From: Buxus sempervirens
Taxonomy: Eukaryota; Streptophyta; Magnoliopsida; Buxales; Buxaceae
Length of the DNA stretch: 64,000 nucleotides
Assembly: GCA_947561395.2 (NCBI GenBank)
Contig: OX387184.1
Location: forward strand, 8,370,001-8,434,000
Direction of reading: 5' to 3'
Of this stretch, positions 791-33,788 are shown piece after piece. Under the pieces are notes generated by a model. It was not told the DNA's origin and made no database searches. It saw nothing but the letters and a program-made list of their open reading frames with translations. How positions within the stretch are numbered: the first letter of the stretch is position 1; every line of letters begins with the position of its first letter. Position numbers and translations under genes: made by a program.

Positions 791-2409
791 TGTGCGCACC
801 TAAAACCTGGCCTAGATCGCACGCCGGGCGCACCTTCGGTGCGTGCCTCGGGACATTCGGAGTCGCCATTGCCTGAGAGTGCAGGCAGACACGGTTTTGC
901 CCTATTCGGGTCTAAGTCTGGTCTGCGGCTTTTCAGAGTTCTAGCTAAGTCCTCGGTTACGGTCCGGGGAAGTCCTAAAGACACCCCGGCCCGCCCCGTC
1001 GGTTTGACGGGTCCCTCGGGTCTCCCTGGTTTTTGAGTCAATTTCACCTTTCCTAGACCAGCATGCTGCCTTATTAGGTTTGGCGGGGCCCTCTGGAGGT
1101 GTGGGTCCCTTTTTATTTGATTTTATCTTTTTATTTATTTAAGTGATGTGGGTCGGACCCGGGTCCCGTTGGAAGACCCGTGGGTTGTCATGGTTGGGCC
1201 TTGGGCCCAGCTGGGTTATTGGGTAACCCATTTGGTTATCTTATTTACTTACACATTCCATGGGCTTAGTGGGCTTGGATTTGGCCCATTAGCCAAGAGT
1301 TAAGTGGCCTTGGACCTGTTTATTGAAAACGGGCCTGGTATGGGCCAGTCAAAAGTGGGCCCCACTAGTGGGCCAAAGGGATCTTAATGGGCCTATCTAG
1401 GCCCAAAGTCCAAAAATGGGCTTAATATAGCCCAAGTGGTTTAAGGGAGTGGTTCAAGCCGGCTTAGGCCGGGTCAGGCCCAACCGAACCAAGAAATTAC
1501 ACTTTTTACATTATTTTTACATCTGCCCGTATTTTCTTTACGGTCTCGCTTGCCCGTGAATGGATTCCGGTCCCCCTTGTCCGTGAATCAAACACGGTCC
1601 AGGCTGGACCGGCCTAAGTTTACGGACGCGACCTGTTTTGCATGTTTGCTGCCGATTTCAATCTGGATCAGTTCCGTGGCTTTCTTGGGATCTTTCTGCA
1701 ACTGATGTTGAAGTTTTCAGCTTCTCCAGATTTGGTACTTGCTTCATTTGGTTCAAAAATGTCATTCTTCCTCTTCCTTTTGTTCTTGGAGGAGACCATC
1801 TTTCTTTTTTATTGTTCATAGCCAGTTTCCAAGGGAAAATAAGGGAATTTACAGGGCTTAGGGATCTCTTTTAAAGGAGTCCACTCTTCCCATACTAAAA
1901 AACATATACTTCAAGTCAATGAAAAAGTGTTCTTAGAACACCTCTTTTTTCTTTTCTTTCCTTTTTTGCTTATGATCATCTTTATAGAACTTGGCTTAAT
2001 ACTATCAACAACAACCAGGTTAGTGATATCAAAATGAAATAATCAAAGGAAAGTGGAGAAAACTTGAAATGATAACTTTGGTCATATTAGAAAATGTAAT
2101 ATACTTACAATGCTAGTGATGATTTCTCCGATGAATCCGGCAGCGCTTCCGCGTCTTCCAAAGTTTGTTGGGACGAATTGGGAAGGGCTTGGTTAGGCTC
2201 GGTTAAGTGGCCTTGGTCAATGGATGGTAAATGAGATGATTGGGCATGGTTTTGGGGTAATCTTATAGCATAGGGGTAATTTGGGTATGAAAAATGATTT
2301 TGGTTAGGGATGGTGGTGGTTGGGCAGGGCTTCGGCCGTGGAGTGCACCAGGAGGGAGAGGAGGTAGGCCAGAGAGGGATGGCTTGTTCAAATGAGGGGG
2401 GTGGCTTCT

Positions 2410-2418
2410 CTATTTATA
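2410..2418 (-). promoter_or_regulatory. LTR B TATA box
   Basis: TATAAATAG on the minus strand, about 25 bp downstream of the centre of the last palindrome in the array. It marks the U3/R side of this LTR. Confidence 0.7.
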
Positions 2419-2432
2419 GGCAAAATTTCCGT

Positions 2433-2646
2433 GCCCGTATTTGAAATACGGGCATGCCTTGCCCGTACTTCAAGTACGGGCGTGCCTTGCCCGTAATTAA
2501 AGTACGGGCGAAAAACGCACATTTGCGAATCTCGCGAATCGGCCGTACGGGACGCGTGTCCCGCCGTACAGCGACGCGTGTCTTCTACCAGAATCTTGCC
2601 CGTATTTCAAATACGGGCATGCCCTGCCCGTAATTCAAATACGGTC
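2433..2646. repeat. Phased palindrome array in LTR B (3 + 2 units, 28-bp period)
   Basis: Five 21-bp inverted repeats of the form GCCCGTA-N7-TACGGGC lie at 2,433-2,453, 2,461-2,481, 2,489-2,509, 2,598-2,618 and 2,626-2,646. Centre-to-centre spacing is exactly 28 bp within each cluster. The same arrangement occurs in LTR A. Confidence 0.9.
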
Positions 2647-3203
2647 CATCACGTTTTTAAAATGTTTGGATTTCAAACCTTTATTCAATTTGGTTTTTTG
2701 CAAGATTCTTATTCGATTTTTCGATTATTTTATTAAAAAGCGAGATTCTCTTTATTAAAATATTATTAAACACATTTATCTTATTTATTTTATTGGTTTA
2801 TTCCATTTTTTGCTGCCTTTTTTGCCACATGGGCAGTTTTTCTGAAACTTCAACTGCTCATAACTTCTTCATCCGGTGTCCGATTTCAGCAAACTTAGTG
2901 TCGTTGGAACCGGCTCGGAATCACCTATCCACTGGGGTCAAGTTTGGCAGCTGAATTGGGGTTGAGCAAAAAGTCAACTTTTTGCTCCCCAAAAGTTTGA
3001 CCAGTTCATATCTTTCTCATCTGGACTCCGATTCCAGCAAATTCAGTTGCATTGGAATCGTGTCGAAATACTCTTTTCAATGAGATGAAGTTCGATGGCC
3101 AAATTTACTTGAATTAAAAAGTCAAATTTTGACCCCCTCAGGGTTTGACTTTTGACTTTTTATTTTTCTTTATTTTGGGGGATGCAAAAATCAGGTGCTA
3201 ACA

Positions 3204-4194
3204 ATTGGCTTGCAAGACACCCATGGTAAGTTCTACATGATGAAGATGGTCCTTCCAACTGCGGCTATATACCAAAATATCATAAAAAAACACAAGCACA
3301 AATTTGCGAAGATGGTTTTGAATACCTCGTTCATTAGGCTTCGGAAGGTGGAAGGAGCGTTGGTCGACCAAGAACTCATAGTGGCCTTTGTGAGTCCTAA
3401 ATGCTGTTTTGTGTATATCGTCGGGGTGCACCCTTATTTGATGGTACCTCGGCTCTAAGATCCAACTTAGAGAAGTATTGTGTTCCATCTAGTTCATCCA
3501 ATAGTTCATCAATGACAGGTATGGGAAACTTGTCTTTCATGGTTTCCCGATTCAGCGCCCGATAATCCACACACATTCGCCAAGTGTTGTCCTTCTTTTT
3601 AACCAATAGCATTGGGGATGAGAATGGGCTTACACTAGGTTGAATACTTCCTGCTGCCAATAACTCCATTACAATCTTCTCTATTTCATTTTTTTGAATG
3701 TAAGGATATCTATAGGGCTGAACATTGGAGGGAGAGCTGCCCGGTTTTAGGGGTATTCGGTGATCTTGAGGTCTGCACAGGGGCAGCCCACTTGGTTCTG
3801 AAAAGACATCATCATATTTATTTAGGAGTGCTTCAATTTCTGCCTCCAAACAGTCCTCAGTACCCATTTTGGGCTGGTCAGCTTGTCTGATGGCCATTTG
3901 GACATCACCCTTGACTGTTGTAATCGTCTGGGCCCCAATAGTGTGGCCCATCCATGAGCTGTAGCCATTCTGGGATGTGGTGTGGGCTTGTTCAAGATGG
4001 AGAATGGGTTGTATTAGAAACAACTGAGCAATAGCAGCTTGATTAGACCTTCTCAAGGTCCGATTCATTTCTTCCGCTCCAAGTAGTTTGTTGGGTCCGG
4101 TGGTAGCACCTCGTAACACATGCCGTTGTCCATTTGTAGTGAACTCCATAAGAAGGTTTTGGAAATCCCAAATAATGGGTCCAAGCCTTGCCAA
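3204..4194 (-). pseudogene. Ty3/gypsy protease-RT spacer and reverse transcriptase (fossil)
   Basis: Minus-strand translation shows the RT entry region ([20 protein letters not shown], then [17 protein letters not shown] and YFSKLDLR) and the following palm segment ([19 protein letters not shown]). These are standard Ty3/gypsy RT motifs. The left end is cut by solo LTR B. Confidence 0.88.
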
Positions 4195-4245
4195 ACTCCA
4201 AGCACCATGTCACATCCTCCTAACAATAATAGACGCATATCTGTT

Positions 4246-4773
4246 TCAAATGTTGCTCCATGCATGACCCATTGAAGCTGTCGGCATACCGCCGTACGTG
4301 CTAGATATTTTAGTGCCATTAGCTACTGCCACTGGAAGGGGATTGGTTTGGTGAATAGTGCATCTCGTTCTTTTTGCCACAATTGGATCAAGGAAATTGT
4401 GGGTACTGCCGGAATCGATAAGGATTGTTACCGGTTTATGCTTAATGTAACCATGCACTCTCATGGTGTGGTTAGCGTTTGATCCCGCAAGAGCATGAAT
4501 TGAAATAACTGGTTCTTCATTTGTGGGTTCCTCTTCTGGTTCATCTTCTTCTACTAGCTCTTCCTCCTCTCCTTCCAATAAGTATAACTGTCGTCTTTTG
4601 CAACGGTGCCCCCTCTCATATTTTTCATCACAATAATAGCATAGCCCTTTGGCTCGCCGATCGTCCATTTGTGCTTGAGAGATTCGTTTGATGGGTGGTA
4701 TGGCAGTGGTTGTGGTGGGTTTGTAATTGGTAGGAAGAGTTTGTGGCTTGTGCGTAGCTCTTACTTTCCGAAC
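4246..4773 (-). pseudogene. Ty3/gypsy gag C-terminus with zinc knuckle, and aspartic protease (fossil)
   Basis: Minus-strand translation has a knuckle of the CYYCDEKYERGHRC kind, an acidic linker, then the pepsin-like protease segment with the active-site context ILIDSGSTHNFLD. The right end is the target site of solo LTR A, which separates it from the gag N-terminal part. Confidence 0.87.
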
Positions 4774-4778
4774 CATTG
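4774..4778. repeat. Target duplication CATTG, left copy (solo LTR A)
   Basis: CATTG at 4,774-4,778 is repeated at 7,224-7,228, exactly outside the TG...CA ends of the solo LTR. Confidence 0.9.
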
Positions 4779-5337
4779 TGTTAGCACCTGATTTTTGCAC
4801 CCCAAAAAATGCAAAAAATGAAATTTTAATTAAAAAGTCAAACCCTGAGGGGACCGAAATTTGACTTTTTGATCCAAAGAAAATTGGCCATCAAACTTCC
4901 TTTCATTGAAAAGAGCATTTCGACACGGTTCTAATGCAACTGAGTTTGCCAGAATCGGAGTCCGGATGAGAAAGTTATGAACCGGTCAAACTTTTGGGGG
5001 AGCGAAAGTTGACTTTTTGCTCGACCCCAATTCAACTGCCCAATTTGATCCCAGTGGATAGTATGTTCCGAGCTGATTCCAACGACACCAAATTTGCTAA
5101 AATCGGACATCAGACGAAGAAGTTATGGGCAGTTGAAGTTTCAAAGAAAGCTGCCCATGTGGCAAAACAGCAGTAAAAAGAAGAATAGATGAATTAAATA
5201 AATAAAAATAATCTTTTAATATTATTTTAATAAGAGAATCTCGTTTTATAATAAAATAATCAAAAAATCGGATAAAAATCTTTAAATAAACTAAATTGAA
5301 TAAAGATTTGAAATCCAAACATTTTTAAAACGTGCTG

Positions 5338-5552
5338 GACCGTATTTGCATTACGGGCAGGGCATGCCTGTATTTGAAGTACGGGCACGCTTCTGGAAGC
5401 AAACACGCGTCGCAGTACGGCAGGACACGCGTTCCGTACGGAAGAATCTGCGATAATTGCAAATATTCGTTTTTCGCCCGTATTTGAATTACGGGCAAGG
5501 CACGCCCGTACTTGAAGTGCGGGCAAGGCATGCCCGTAGTTCAAATACGGGC
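5338..5552. repeat. Phased palindrome array in LTR A (2 + 3 units, 28-bp period)
   Basis: Five 21-bp inverted repeats GCCCGTA-N7-TACGGGC (some with one or two changes) at 5,338-5,358, 5,366-5,386, 5,476-5,496, 5,504-5,524 and 5,532-5,552. Centres are 28 bp apart within clusters. The last centre is about 25 bp before the TATA box. Confidence 0.9.
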
Positions 5553-5566
5553 ACGAAAATTTTGCC

Positions 5567-5575
5567 TATAAATAG
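5567..5575 (+). promoter_or_regulatory. LTR A TATA box
   Basis: TATAAATAG directly after the palindrome array, matching the mirrored arrangement in LTR B. Confidence 0.72.
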
Positions 5576-7223
5576 AGAGGCCACCCCCTCATTTGGGGAA
5601 GCTGAGCCTCCAGGCTTCCTCCCTCTTCCCCTCTCACGTTTTCCACGGCCAACCTCTGCCCGGTTGCCGCCACCCCTAAACCCTTTTTGTTCCCAAAATA
5701 CCCCTGTCCCATCGAAACTATGTCCAAACCTCCTCTAATCCTCCTTTGAACGTAACCGCCTACCGAATCCCTTTTGAACCCAACTTAAGAATTTTTGGAG
5801 GACGCGGAAGCGCTGCCCAATTTACTGGAGGAACCATAACCTGTAAATCATATTGTGGTAAGTATGTTTAATTTTTTAATCAATACAAGTTTAATGTAGT
5901 TACTTTCAATTTCTCTTCAAATTTCCCTTTTAAATTTTGTTCTTGGTGTTACTAATCAATTTATTGTCTTTTTTAGTATTGTGAGATGCTAAGTTCAAAA
6001 GGGAGGGGATCATCATGAAAAAAAAAAAGAGAAAGTGCTTTAAGGACACCTTAATTAACTAATTTAGTAACTTATTTTGGTTCTTTGGAAAGGTAGAATT
6101 TGGCTCCTTTGAGATTCCCTAATCCCCTGTAAACCCCTTTTTCCATTCTTGAATTTGGCTACAAGCAATCAAGAGGAGGTCTTATTGCTTCCGGAATATC
6201 AAAAGGAAGAAGAAGAGAATGGCCTTCTAGGCCAAATGAAGAAAATGTAGCATTTGAAGAACCTGGAATCTCAACGGAAGTCATCGGACATCCCAAGAAG
6301 GCCACGGAACTGATCCCAGGAAGAATCGGCGGCCAAAATGCAAAACTGGAGGCGCCCGTAAACTCAGAACGGTCCAGTCTGGACCGTGTTTGCTTCACGG
6401 GCGAGGCAAACCGGATTTCGTCTACGGGCGACGATGGACCGTATAGACAATACGGGCTAATGTAAAAATAATATAAAAAATGTAATTTTCCGGCCCGGTT
6501 GAACCTAATTCGACCTGAACCGGCCTGAACCAGTCCCTTAAGCAATTTGGGCTATCTTAAGCCCATATTTGGACCATGGGCCCAGATGGGCCCACCAAGA
6601 CCACCCTGGGCCCAACCGTGGAGCCCACTTCGGACCGGCCCAAACCAGGCCCGTTTTCAATAAACGGGCCCAAGGCCATTTGACTTTGGCTAATGGGCCC
6701 ATTCCAAGCCCACTAAGCCCAAACCTAAAGTGTAAATAAATAAAATAATAAAATAACCAAATGGGTTACCCAATAACCCAACTGGGCCCAAGGCCCAACC
6801 ATGGCAGCCCACGGGTCTTCCAACGGGACCCGGGTCCGACCCATTCCGCTAAATAAAAAGATAAAATCAAAATAAAGGGGACCTATGCCTTCAATGGTCC
6901 CACCAGACCAAATAAAGTGTGCATGCTGGCTTAGGAATTGGGTGAAAACCAAGTTGACTCAAAACCAAGGAGACCCACGGGACCTGTCAATCGACGGGGC
7001 GGGCTAGGGTGTCTTCGGGCTTCCCTAGACGTAACCGAGAACTTGCTCAGAACTCTAATAAGCCGCAGACCAGAATAATTAGGCCCGAATAGGTGCCCCT
7101 TTTGTGTCTGCCTGCACCTCTCAGGCAGTGGCGACTCCAAACTCCAAATCAGTCCCGAGGCGAGCATCACTCTTTGCATGCACCTCGTCGTGCGGCCCGA
7201 AACCGAAATCGGGGGTGCGCACA

Positions 7224-7931
7224 CATTGCCTCCATTGTCTCCTCTTGTAATCCATCTAACCCGATTGCTTGAGATAAGGTGGTGGGACGAAACATCATAA
7301 CACCATTTCTTATCTCTGCTTGCAAGCCGCTTGTGAAGCAACTTACAAAAAATTCTTCTGATACGCCTGCAGTTTGACTCATTAGTGCTTCAAATTGCTC
7401 ATAATATGTATGCATAGAACTTACTTGCTTGAGTTTAGTGAGTTGGCCCACTGCATCCTCATAATGGTTTGGACCAAAATGTATAGAGATATCATTGGCG
7501 AAGGTCTTCCAATTGATTTGATTTTTTCAAACCTCATAGCTTTGGAACCACTCCAGAGCCTTACCTTCCAAATGAATGGAAGCTAGATACACCATATCCT
7601 CATCTCTTATGCCGTTGAAGTTCAAGAACCGGTTGCAGCGATAAATCCAACCTCTAGGATTGTCTCCATCAAAACGAGGGAATTCGATCTTAGTGTACCT
7701 AGTGTGAACGGTGTCCCTACTCGAGTTGTTCCTTGTTCCAGCGTAACTGGAAGCTTCTCTTCGATCACTTTCATTCAAGTGATTAGCTAGTTGGTCATAC
7801 TTGAGGTTCATTGGCGCCACCATTTGTGACAGGTCCTTCATAGCTGTAGCTTATTTATCTGAACTATCTTTCAGCTGTTTGATGGTATCTTCCATGCACC
7901 TAGTATCTTGTGACCTAGTTCCTTCGGCCAT
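7224..7931 (-). pseudogene. Ty3/gypsy gag N-terminal and middle region (fossil)
   Basis: Minus-strand translation shows the retrotransposon gag core with FDGDNPRGWIYRCNRFLNF and the following YYEQFEALMSQTAGVSEEFF segment. A gag start lies near 7,931, just downstream of the primer site. The left end is the target site of solo LTR A. Confidence 0.82.
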
Positions 7932-30118: not shown

Positions 30119-32938
30119 CTACCAATAATCTCTGCATGAACACCTTCCATCCTTGAAGGAATGAAAACGACGTGAATCCCTCAACACTATCTCTATCCCT
30201 TCCACTTGAGATATAAACTTCATCCAATTATGACAATCCTGACATACTCTCAGATTCTTGATCACCCTGATTACACCTTTGGTAGCAGATCCACCATGTA
30301 TGAGACCCAAGGACACAGCCAGCTTCTCACTATGGCAACCAATGATTGCTTCCTTCTGTGATTCTTCGACATCATGAAGCACACTCTCTGTCATTGGCAG
30401 GTAACCAATTTTCCTGCATTCATCACTCAACTCCTCTAGCTTCCCATAGATTTCATTCCTCCAAGGGTGAGATACATCTCCAGCTACAAATATGTGTGTC
30501 CTGTTACCAGCCTCTATCCAGCTGCATCCAACTTCTTTCTTTAACCCTTTGCTTCTCATAGAATTCCGAACTCTTATTGCTTCCTCCCACATGCCGGACG
30601 AGGCATAAAGATTGGAGAGAAGAATGTGAGTAGTCTCATCTTCAGGTTCTGACTCTAGAATTATGGTTGCAGCATGGATGCCAAGCTCAAGTTGCTTATG
30701 AGCATGACAGGCCCCAAGCAACACTCTCCACAGGTTCAAGGAAGCACCATGACTGGGCTTGAAGAGACTATCTCCATCTTCAATAAACTTTATGGCATGG
30801 TCAAATTGGCCTGACCTACTGAACATATCAACCATACATGCATAGTGCTCGATGCTTGGATTCAGACCATATTCCTTCCTCATGGAACTAAAGTATTGAG
30901 TTCCTTCTTCTATTAGACCACCATAAGCACATGCTGTGAGTAGTCCAAGGAAAGTTACTTGGTTGGGATTGACCCCTTCTCTTTTCATCCTCTGGAAGAG
31001 TTGGAGGGATTCATGAGCCATTCCATGATGTGCATATCCTGTTATCATGGCTGTCCATGAAAATACATCCTTCCTTCCCATCCTTGAAAATACTTGGGCT
31101 GCGTCGTCAGCATTGCCACATTTTGAATACATGGATACCATGGCATTGTTAATTGACAGAAAAGAAGACTGGCGAGAATAAATAGAGTGGTGGAAGTATT
31201 TCACAATGATGGCATGAAACTGCTTTCCCAGTTGCAGTGAAGCAAGTTTGCCACAAGCTGTCAGAAGAATTGAGAAGGCCAAATAATCTGAGGGAAAGCC
31301 TTGCTCATGCAGTTTTACAAAGACCATGACAGCATCCTCCGATCTGCCATTGATGGAATATGCATCCATCATTGCGTTCCAAGAGTATGAGTCCCTGTTT
31401 CTCATCCCTTTGAAAATTTTCTCTGCATCAGCTACCCGATTGCACTTTGAATACATTGTAATTATGGCATTTGCTGTTGAAATATCAAATCCATCAGAAG
31501 CAATTCTCCTCAATATATACCCATGAATTTCTCCACCTCCTCCTGAATACTGTGATCTGGAAGGTCCGGATGAAGCTGCACTAAGGATAACAGTGAAACT
31601 GTGAGCATCTGGCTCAACACGTGATGACTGCATTTTCTTGAAAAGTTCCAAACAATTCTCCCATTGCTCATTCTGCTCATAACCAGAGAGCATTGAGTTC
31701 CATGTTATGACATCCTTAGAAGGCAACCTGTCAAACACCATTCTTGCTTTTCTAACTTCCCCACACTTGGAGTACATGGTGATAAGAGAATTGCCGATGC
31801 TTGTATCAAGGTCTAGCCCTGACCTCATCATATGTGCATGGATTTCTCTTCCATGCTCCAAAGCTGAAACCCCAGAAACAGCACTGATAACACTGAGTAA
31901 AGTGATGCGGTTTGGTTGTGCCAAATTTTCATATCTCAGCATCTTATGAAACAAGTTTATTGCAGTCTCATCTTCATCATTCTGTTCATTACCCGCAATA
32001 ATTGAATTCCATGAAACAACATTTTTCCTAGATGTCTTATCAAACACAAGCATTGCTTTTTCCAAGTTCCCACATTTGGCAAAGAACGTAACAAGAGAGT
32101 TTCTCAGATTTGTCTCGCCGAACAGTCCATCTTTGACAATCCTTCCAAGAATTATTTTCCCGTACATTTGTTCCCCTGAGGAAAGACAAGCACTTATCAT
32201 GCTAGTATAAGTGCGCTCTGTTGGGACTACCAGTCCATTTGTGAGCATATCATCAAACAAATAAAATGCATCAGTCCAACATCCATGTGAGACATAGGCA
32301 GCTATGATAGAATTCCACAACGGGATATCATCAACAAAAGAAGTTGGGACCTCATCGAAAACCCGCTGAGCATCTTCTAGGAGCCCACAATTTGAGTACA
32401 TGGTTATGAGGGAAGTTCGTACGCCAGCCTCTAACCCAAAACCAGTTCTTATCGACAAACCATGGAGTTTTCTACCGAGAGAAATATTCCTCAGACTGGA
32501 ACTCACTTTGAGGAGGCTCCCCAGAGAAAACTCATTGGGCATCAATCCTTCCTCCATCATATTCTCGAACACACTAAGCGTCTGTAAGAAATTCCCAGAT
32601 CGAGTATATCCAGAAATCATGGTAGACCAGGAGACATCATCTTTGTTAGACATTTTATCGAACAATCGTCGTGCATCGTCTGCTCTATCGTGTTTAACGA
32701 GAGAGCTCAAGATTTTATTGCATGTGAAAGAGTCCAGCAAAAAGAGACTACTCTCTAGTTCGAGGAGTAACTTGGGTACCTCTTCGATTCGTCCCTGAGA
32801 GCATAACTGGCGGAGATTTGCAACTTTCTGTTCATTATTTGGAGAAATGGGGTTGCAAAAGTGAGCCCGGATATTATCGCAGGGTAATCGCAGGAAGAAC
32901 GAAGGCACTGATACGGCAGCCGAAGAGATGGTTGCCAT
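30119..32938 (-). CDS. PPR protein, PLS class, DYW subgroup
   Basis: 939 residues, one exon. The N-terminus (MATISSAAVSVPSFFLRLPC) is rich in Ser, Ala and Arg with few acids, as in mitochondrial or chloroplast targeting peptides. From about residue 55 to 720 there are repeated PPR units such as YTRSGNFLQTLSVFENMMEE and ITMYSKCGEVRKARMVFD. The E region begins LWRVLLGACHAHKQLELG, and the DYW domain has the deaminase-like HSEKLAVSLGLI, VCQDCHNWMKFIS and the terminal CSCRDYW. DYW proteins edit specific cytidines to uridines in organelle transcripts, with repeats selecting the site; the target here is not predictable by eye. The gene looks intact. Its 5' end and upstream region were copied with the BSP genes: fragments lie at 14,416-14,483 and 38,829-38,895. 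Confidence 0.96.
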   Translation of the reverse strand: MATISSAAVSVPSFFLRLPCDNIRAHFCNPISPNNEQKVANLRQLCSQGRIEEVPKLLLELESSLFLLDSFTCNKILSSLVKHDRADDARRLFDKMSNKDDVSWSTMISGYTRSGNFLQTLSVFENMMEEGLMPNEFSLGSLLKVSSSLRNISLGRKLHGLSIRTGFGLEAGVRTSLITMYSNCGLLEDAQRVFDEVPTSFVDDIPLWNSIIAAYVSHGCWTDAFYLFDDMLTNGLVVPTERTYTSMISACLSSGEQMYGKIILGRIVKDGLFGETNLRNSLVTFFAKCGNLEKAMLVFDKTSRKNVVSWNSIIAGNEQNDEDETAINLFHKMLRYENLAQPNRITLLSVISAVSGVSALEHGREIHAHMMRSGLDLDTSIGNSLITMYSKCGEVRKARMVFDRLPSKDVITWNSMLSGYEQNEQWENCLELFKKMQSSRVEPDAHSFTVILSAASSGPSRSQYSGGGGEIHGYILRRIASDGFDISTANAIITMYSKCNRVADAEKIFKGMRNRDSYSWNAMMDAYSINGRSEDAVMVFVKLHEQGFPSDYLAFSILLTACGKLASLQLGKQFHAIIVKYFHHSIYSRQSSFLSINNAMVSMYSKCGNADDAAQVFSRMGRKDVFSWTAMITGYAHHGMAHESLQLFQRMKREGVNPNQVTFLGLLTACAYGGLIEEGTQYFSSMRKEYGLNPSIEHYACMVDMFSRSGQFDHAIKFIEDGDSLFKPSHGASLNLWRVLLGACHAHKQLELGIHAATIILESEPEDETTHILLSNLYASSGMWEEAIRVRNSMRSKGLKKEVGCSWIEAGNRTHIFVAGDVSHPWRNEIYGKLEELSDECRKIGYLPMTESVLHDVEESQKEAIIGCHSEKLAVSLGLIHGGSATKGVIRVIKNLRVCQDCHNWMKFISQVEGIEIVLRDSRRFHSFKDGRCSCRDYW

Positions 32939-33788
32939 GGTGGAAAATAAGCGGAAACAGAAGCTTGAAGCTATTCACAGTAATTCACGAAAAAGATGAC
33001 CATATACCCAAACAGTATGATCGGTTCATTTCGCTACAAATGATAACAATTTTAACGGTAACAACGGTCAAAATCCAATGTTAACATGTGCTTTACAATC
33101 GTCCATTCGGATAATTCTTTTAATTTTGGGTTTATATCGCGGTGTCCTTTATCTACAACCTTATTTGTAGTGTTTTAAGATTACTTAAAAATTTACAGTT
33201 ATATCATTCACGGTACACATGGCATGTTCCCAATGTATGCTCCAAATAAGATCATGGATAAAAGGGATCTCAATTGTTAATTTTCGTCTATTGAGCTCAT
33301 CTCTCACACGGAGGATCCTGCGAAGACAGCCGTTGGTCCGTTGGTCGGTAGGAAAACTCGTGAATGCTTTGCTTTAAAAGTTTTGTCGTGTGTTTGGTTT
33401 AACCGGAAATCCGCTTTGACCCGGCTCATTCACGTTTTTGTATTGAAAGAGGATTTTGTTGCGAGGGGCAGCATCTGGAAACTTAAAATCTTGAATGGCT
33501 TTCTCATTTTTTTTTTCTACTACACTGCACGTGTCGAACTGCACGTATGAAGAAAGAGATAGAGAGAGAGTGAACTGTTTCGTAATTGATTACTAAGTTT
33601 TTAAAAAATTGAATAGTTTTGATTATTGTACCATTTTATTAATGAATATTTAGAATGACATACAAGGGCTGTTTTGGAAACACGCACACTTTGCTTGGCA
33701 CGATTCCGAAAGGAGCACTTTATGTTATATATAGTATAGATTATCCACAAAAAAAAAAGGAGCAAAGGCTTGTGCAATCAAAAGTTTG

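Follow-up and report, generated by a model that had tools for sequence, protein, structure and literature searches.

Palindromic repeated motifs (RMs) have been named in the LTRs of Sirevirus elements (Ty1/copia), where they carry a CGG-CCG core and precede the TATA box (Bousios et al. 2010, PMC2829016). That paper describes such arrays as Sirevirus-specific within the Ty1/copia elements it covers. They are the nearest published kind to the palindrome array that we describe here from Buxus sempervirens, although a first-pass annotation of this DNA had known of no named motif of the sort in plant LTRs. According to the descriptions in PMC2829016, the two systems share multi-copy CpG palindromes that cluster in the part of the LTR before the TATA box, a motif that is kept while its flanks diverge and, for some elements, an additional cluster at another place. 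They differ in that the host element here carries a Ty3/gypsy gag and is not of the Ty1/copia kind; in that the half-sites run CCG...CGG here, whereas all RMs listed in Table 3 of that paper except Tnd-1 run CGG...CCG; in that CCG and CGG are 11 bp apart here, as opposed to the 5 bp that separate CGG from CCG in Osr10, Inga and OPIE-2 (same table); and in that the present array has a regular 28-bp phase and a companion that lies in the downstream LTR or in the leader, not before env as that source has it. Judged from the letters, the position and symmetry of the array are known from Sirevirus, while its Ty3/gypsy lineage, half-site order and gap differ.

VANDAL elements are DNA transposons. 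Their VANC targets are similar to the present array in being short motifs repeated in noncoding regions of the TE, in one case with the motif shared by an unrelated TE (AT9TSD1); in the accounts of PMC5735166 and PMC10398659, however, the motifs are one-oriented and the protein is known, whereas the present array consists of palindromes and its protein is putative. Retand gypsy elements also combine tandem repeats with a candidate DNA-binding accessory protein, but in the elements described in PMC11963269 the arrays are found after pol and before the 3' LTR, and the LTRs measure 315-1,194 bp, compared to 2.4 kb here. No palindrome array in gypsy LTRs is described in the titles and abstract openings listed for papers on LTR, Ogre or gypsy palindromes, and PMC6911290, in what it says of insertion into palindromes, is not relevant to the array. 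The NAC site of JUB1 (TGCCGT-7n-ACG; PMC4844398, Table 1) is comparable in its dimeric protein and its CCGT and ACG cores; we rejected a NAC-type site, as JUB1 has CGT-N7-ACG versus CGT-N9-ACG here, with the spacing off by 2 bp. The Vaccinium satellite primer VaccSat2 contains GTACGGGC (PMC7290377, Table 2), and two other Vaccinium satellites are related to Ogre-like gypsy elements according to the same source; a link between VaccSat2 and the present array is only a guess.

The window, by which we mean the whole 64-kb stretch of DNA analysed (contig OX387184.1, 8370001-8434000), was studied together with the 676.5-Mb genome. Allowing three mismatches or fewer, GCCCGTA-N7-TACGGGC matches 18 times in the window, all within 1525-6669 (expected 0.48, largest 3 in 100 shuffles of the window), and 10 of these 18 palindromes make up the U3 arrays of two solo LTRs, A and B (Table 1); relatives of LTR B were found by BLAST. 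Each LTR is flanked by a 5-bp target duplication, in line with the solo status proposed for them at first. Each carries five G[C/A]CCGTA-N7-TACGG[G/T]C palindromes, of which two are exact and three have one mismatch in LTR B, with four exact and one of one mismatch in LTR A. The steps inside the clusters are exactly 28 bp in both LTRs, as the first-pass annotation had claimed, and the cluster-to-cluster distance is 110 bp in B and 109 bp in A. The 3 + 2 layout reported for LTR A applies in forward coordinates only: since LTR A lies on the minus strand, its order in element orientation is 2 + 3, the same as in LTR B. The last palindrome and the TATA box are separated by 13 bp in both LTRs (in LTR B, from the palindrome end at 5552 to the TATA start at 5566), and not by the ~25 bp given initially. 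Also overlooked at that stage were the diverged downstream arrays of both LTRs, of which that of LTR B is probably transcribed; a four-unit array ~830 bp 3' of the TATA box in a related locus, L002, is better kept than this second array. Both LTRs appear to be embedded in fragments of a minus-strand gypsy-type element, with an RNase H domain at 57-734 of the window and a protease-like match in the ORF at 4249-4890. The stretch between the two U3 clusters of LTR B holds extra half-sites in inverted order (TACGG-N13-CCGTA), which are mostly conserved.

Table 1. Features of solo LTRs A and B, in window positions
Feature	Position	Strand	Details
Solo LTR B, family 1	4779-7223	+	2445 bp; ends TGTTAGCACC...GTGCGCACA; target duplication CATTG 4774-4778 / 7224-7228
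LTR B palindrome 1	5338-5358	+	1 mismatch
LTR B palindrome 2	5366-5386	+	1 mismatch; 28 bp after palindrome 1
LTR B between-cluster stretch	5387-5475	+	half-sites TACGG 5416-5420, CCGTA 5434-5438
LTR B palindrome 3	5476-5496	+	exact
LTR B palindrome 4	5504-5524	+	1 mismatch; 28 bp after palindrome 3
LTR B palindrome 5	5532-5552	+	exact; 28 bp after palindrome 4
LTR B TATA box CTATAAATAG	5566-5575	+	diversity 0.012 over 5565-5576, 27 copies
LTR B second array, diverged, 3' of TATA	6354-6457	+	units 6354, 6382, 6409, 6437; 1-3 mismatches; steps 28, 27, 28
Solo LTR A, family 1	791-3203	-	2413 bp; target duplication ATTGG 786-790 / 3204-3208; aligned with LTR B
LTR A U3 cluster of two	2598-2646	-	units 2626, 2598
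LTR A U3 cluster of three	2433-2509	-	units 2489, 2461, 2433
LTR A TATA box	2410-2419	-	minus-strand sequence
LTR A second-array remains	1525-1572	-	1525 (1 mismatch), 1552 (3 mismatches)

Genome-wide counts of the motif, which are not independent because the copies share ancestry, point to a gap that hardly varies: GCCCGTA and TACGGGC are paired 11,324 times at any gap from 0 to 30 bp (reversed-pattern control, 89) and 11,266 times as GCCCGTA-N7-TACGGGC, while GACCGTA and TACGGTC are paired 1,398 times at gaps of 0-30 bp (reversed wide-gap control, 57) and 1,381 times at a gap of 7 bp. The gap is thus 7 bp in 99.5% and 98.8% of the pairs, respectively. Neighbouring sites at the 28-bp step (TACGG-N11-CCGTA-N7-TACGG) number 11,213 on the forward strand (control, 0), compared to 12,454 on the same strand with a linker of N1-30 (control, 29), meaning that 90% stand at 28 bp, with the same shared ancestry behind these figures; the exceptions seen among the matches listed for one contig are 27-bp steps and longer gaps. 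The spacer itself is varied, with 57 distinct N7 sequences in 73 distinct exact palindromes. A near-invariant gap combined with a free spacer sequence favours recognition as DNA.

The 5' part of the family 1 LTR, to which LTRs A and B belong, gave 6,716 first-look candidates genome-wide, and LTR pairs 9-13 kb apart are present in the genome. A related gag ORF is found in 7/7 of the LTR-paired internal regions, in two main types that are ~43% identical. When compared with Pfam, four gag ORFs (three from family 1 internal regions and one from family 2, described below) matched PF03732, Retrotrans_gag (E 3.8e-14, 2e-11, 1.5e-11 and 7.5e-12), and three of the four also matched Ty3_capsid, weakly. 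Ty3/gypsy features of these elements include the gypsy-type gag, TG...CA LTR ends, 5-bp target duplications, and PBS-like and polypurine stretches at the LTR borders. The LTR is followed by TGGCGACTCTGCTGGGGA; copia elements use a Met-tRNA site. No pol match was obtained among the element ORFs scanned with Pfam (six of one set of seven proteins, plus the family 2 ORF), and an RVT_1 match at L047:242-1258 belongs outside the LTR, which starts near 1226. On the ORFs scanned, the copies examined are, by their predicted proteins, gag-only Ty3/gypsy elements. Family 1 LTRs flank both gag types (L038 and L035 are 43% identical), and their U5 ends differ, with LTR A resembling the L038/L040 type and LTR B the L035 type.

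A second LTR family, whose LTR starts with TGTAGACACC (loci L050-L053, L056 and others), also carries these half-sites. Comparison of LTR B with L050, L052 and L053 returned no BLAST match longer than 60 bp at E 1e-5, L051 matched in the array only, and the family 2 gag is 39% identical to that of family 1 over 437 aligned columns. The U3 array of family 2 consists of four palindromes in 7/7 loci, with steps of 28 bp or of 28, 27 and 28 bp, and lies ~200 bp before the TATA box (found in 5/7 loci), versus 13 bp in family 1. A leader array of five palindromes at exact 28-bp steps follows 1.2 kb after the primer-site sequence (L055:1343-1475, L056:3453-3585). Half-sites, gap length and a near-28-bp phase are kept in family 2, with diverged spacer and linker letters. 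A family 3 LTR (TGTAAGCACC) is located in L054 from ~2456, directly after a family 2 array; it is akin to LTR B over ~300 bp and contains no palindrome at three mismatches or fewer, with none before its TATA box, so the array is missing from at least one relative.

For family 1, 45 LTR sequences were aligned and 27 retained after removal of 18 with >95% identity. The within-cluster steps are 28 bp in 27/27 of these, which bears out the phase noted before. Mean pairwise diversity in this set, where low values for the array are favoured since most copies were picked by their likeness to it, was 0.018 for the CCGTA/TACGG core, 0.023 for the 14 arm positions and 0.138 for N7, compared to 0.065 in the linkers, a fairly low value as well, 0.116 between the clusters, 0.132 in the LTR upstream and 0.012 at the TATA box. 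A second set of 20 family 1 copies was picked by LTR positions 1-522 (19 of 39 other listed places were left out): the arms (0.0075) again differ from N7 (0.093; permutation p 5e-5), while their difference from the between-cluster stretch (0.021) is not significant (p 0.06). Part of the N7 variation in this set looks like an exchange of units, which would spare the shared arms without selection. In family 2 (6 of 7 loci, one being dropped at >97% identity), diversity was 0.107 in the core, 0.171 in the full arms, 0.419 in N7 and 0.462 in the linkers, and the difference between core and N7 or between core and linkers was reached in 0 of 20,000 permutations; compared with the flanks (5' 0.169, 3' 0.372), the full arms are level with the 5' side and only the core is lower than it. 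In two gypsy families or more, half-sites and gap appear to be under constraint, and the earlier claims of conserved arms around a variable N7, and of selection rather than duplication alone, are supported.

It had also been proposed to score the aligned LTRs for covariation between the arms. None of the arm pairs 1-7 has a compensated double change in the 129 family 1 units, and pair 8/14 does not depart from chance (41 vs 36.0±4.4). A wider pairing test covered 139 distinct units in 110 chains from all arrays, with L003 and L004 left out as overlapping L002; the chains were built with 27- or 28-bp steps only, which makes their step counts uninformative on other spacings. In a first shuffle, complementary pairs were in excess at 1/21 (112 vs 104.3±1.8) and 2/20 (67 vs 50.9±4.4), largely owing to the rule used to orient the units. 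With a symmetric shuffle, the count at 1/21, the best pair (112 vs 106.7±2.7), was reached by 121 of 2000 shuffles, that at 2/20 (67 vs 60.3±5.5) by 253 of 2000 and that at 7/15 by 477 of 2000, and complementarity at 9/13 was below chance (38/139 vs 71.1). The phase is kept in the aligned LTRs; arm changes are not compensated beyond chance. RNA folding of six array stretches was better than that of shuffles in every case (z -4.0 to -11.1), as palindromes are bound to fold. Of the dimeric sites or RNA stems originally offered, the nearly fixed gap and the uncompensated arms favour the former, and stems are demoted even though the arrays still fold strongly.

We suggest that DNA recognition by a symmetric dimer is the best-supported mechanism, and that the array is a candidate cis-regulatory module of gag-only Ty3/gypsy elements, with a probability of roughly 0.6. 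In thousands of retrotransposon copies, rows of palindromes near the promoter look like docking sites for a two-part DNA-binding protein. The rows would be made of symmetric DNA sites with the half-site CCGTA (extended, G[C/A]CCGTA), a nearly fixed, A+T-rich 7-bp gap and a mostly 28-bp repeat, each palindrome being recognised in its DNA form by a dimer that requires a rigid distance between half-sites. The near-constant phase suggests that neighbouring dimers may touch or act together, and the placement of one array upstream of the TATA box and of a second in the downstream LTR or in the leader suggests a role in controlling how the element is transcribed, by activation or by protection from silencing. 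The putative dimer could be a host protein or an element-encoded one.

It can be argued instead that the palindromes work as RNA or single-strand hairpins, either as transcript stems needed by the element or as a small-RNA source or silencing signal. The strong folding of all six stretches would fit, as would the second arrays of families 1 and 2 downstream of the TATA box, the complementarity of pairs 1/21 and 2/20 above the first shuffle, and the finding, stated in PMC5311732 and PMC10760457, that maize Sirevirus palindromes are small-RNA hotspots. However, the excess at those two pairs is mostly gone under the symmetric shuffle, the family 1 units lack compensated changes at pairs 1-7 and pair 9/13 is below chance. 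A hairpin loop should also tolerate changes in length, yet the gap is almost always 7 bp, and since a U3 array precedes the TATA box, transcripts would include it only when they come from the 3' LTR or from read-through. We consider hairpins quite unlikely. Passive tandem repeats, in which a 28-bp palindromic unit has multiplied and stays alike, without any function under selection, through unit exchange and because the copies are young, would account for the N7 variants of the 20-copy set that resemble unit swaps, for the p of 0.06 between arms and between-cluster stretch, and for the occurrence of 27-bp steps. We find this decidedly unlikely: unit exchange should make N7 and linkers uniform along with the arms. 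In family 2, N7 (0.42) and the linkers (0.46) are strongly diverged, yet half-sites and gap length are retained, and the same half-sites are present in two LTR families, at four array positions.

A special case of dimer recognition, by analogy with VANC, is that an element-encoded protein would bind the array, with an autonomous partner providing it in trans for the gag-only elements. In noncoding regions of TEs, VANC proteins bind short tandem-repeat motifs and remove methylation (PMC5735166, PMC10398659), Retand gypsy elements encode an antisense TRP28 that is predicted to bind DNA (PMC11963269), and different element families here share one code. Against this, PF04195 (the Retand antisense TRP28) had no match in the genome, a result that leaves its absence unproven, the control genomes being equally silent; the largest gag-containing frames reach 879 aa (78 listed matches) and 677 aa (83 listed matches), with no gag frame >879 aa among these 78 + 83 matches listed, of ~12,500 and ~11,700 first-look candidates; and VANC21 sites are given in one orientation and, in the accounts cited, are not described as palindromes. 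We regard such a protein as rather unlikely. Somewhat bolder, and doubtful, is the idea that distinct gypsy families share a rigid CCGTA-N7-TACGG code with a 28-bp phase, outliving the surrounding sequence, because all of them are recruited or un-silenced by one trans-acting dimer, which might come from an autonomous element as yet unseen; if true, non-autonomous elements would parasitise not only the replication enzymes but a regulatory protein too. Under dimer recognition in general, half-site, gap and phase make up a testable candidate binding site that occurs naturally in thousands of copies, as needed for an affinity search for the protein. LTR palindrome arrays would then extend from the Ty1/copia Sirevirus to Ty3/gypsy elements, and could show whether their role lies in transcription, silencing or escape from silencing.

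Outside the LTRs, PF04450 (BSP peptidase) was matched in 6 of 10 scanned ORFs (9976, 35070, 40102, 42546, 44485 and 48852), which form a local cluster on the minus strand at 9976-49556 of the window, and a DYW-type PPR protein is encoded at 30122-32974.
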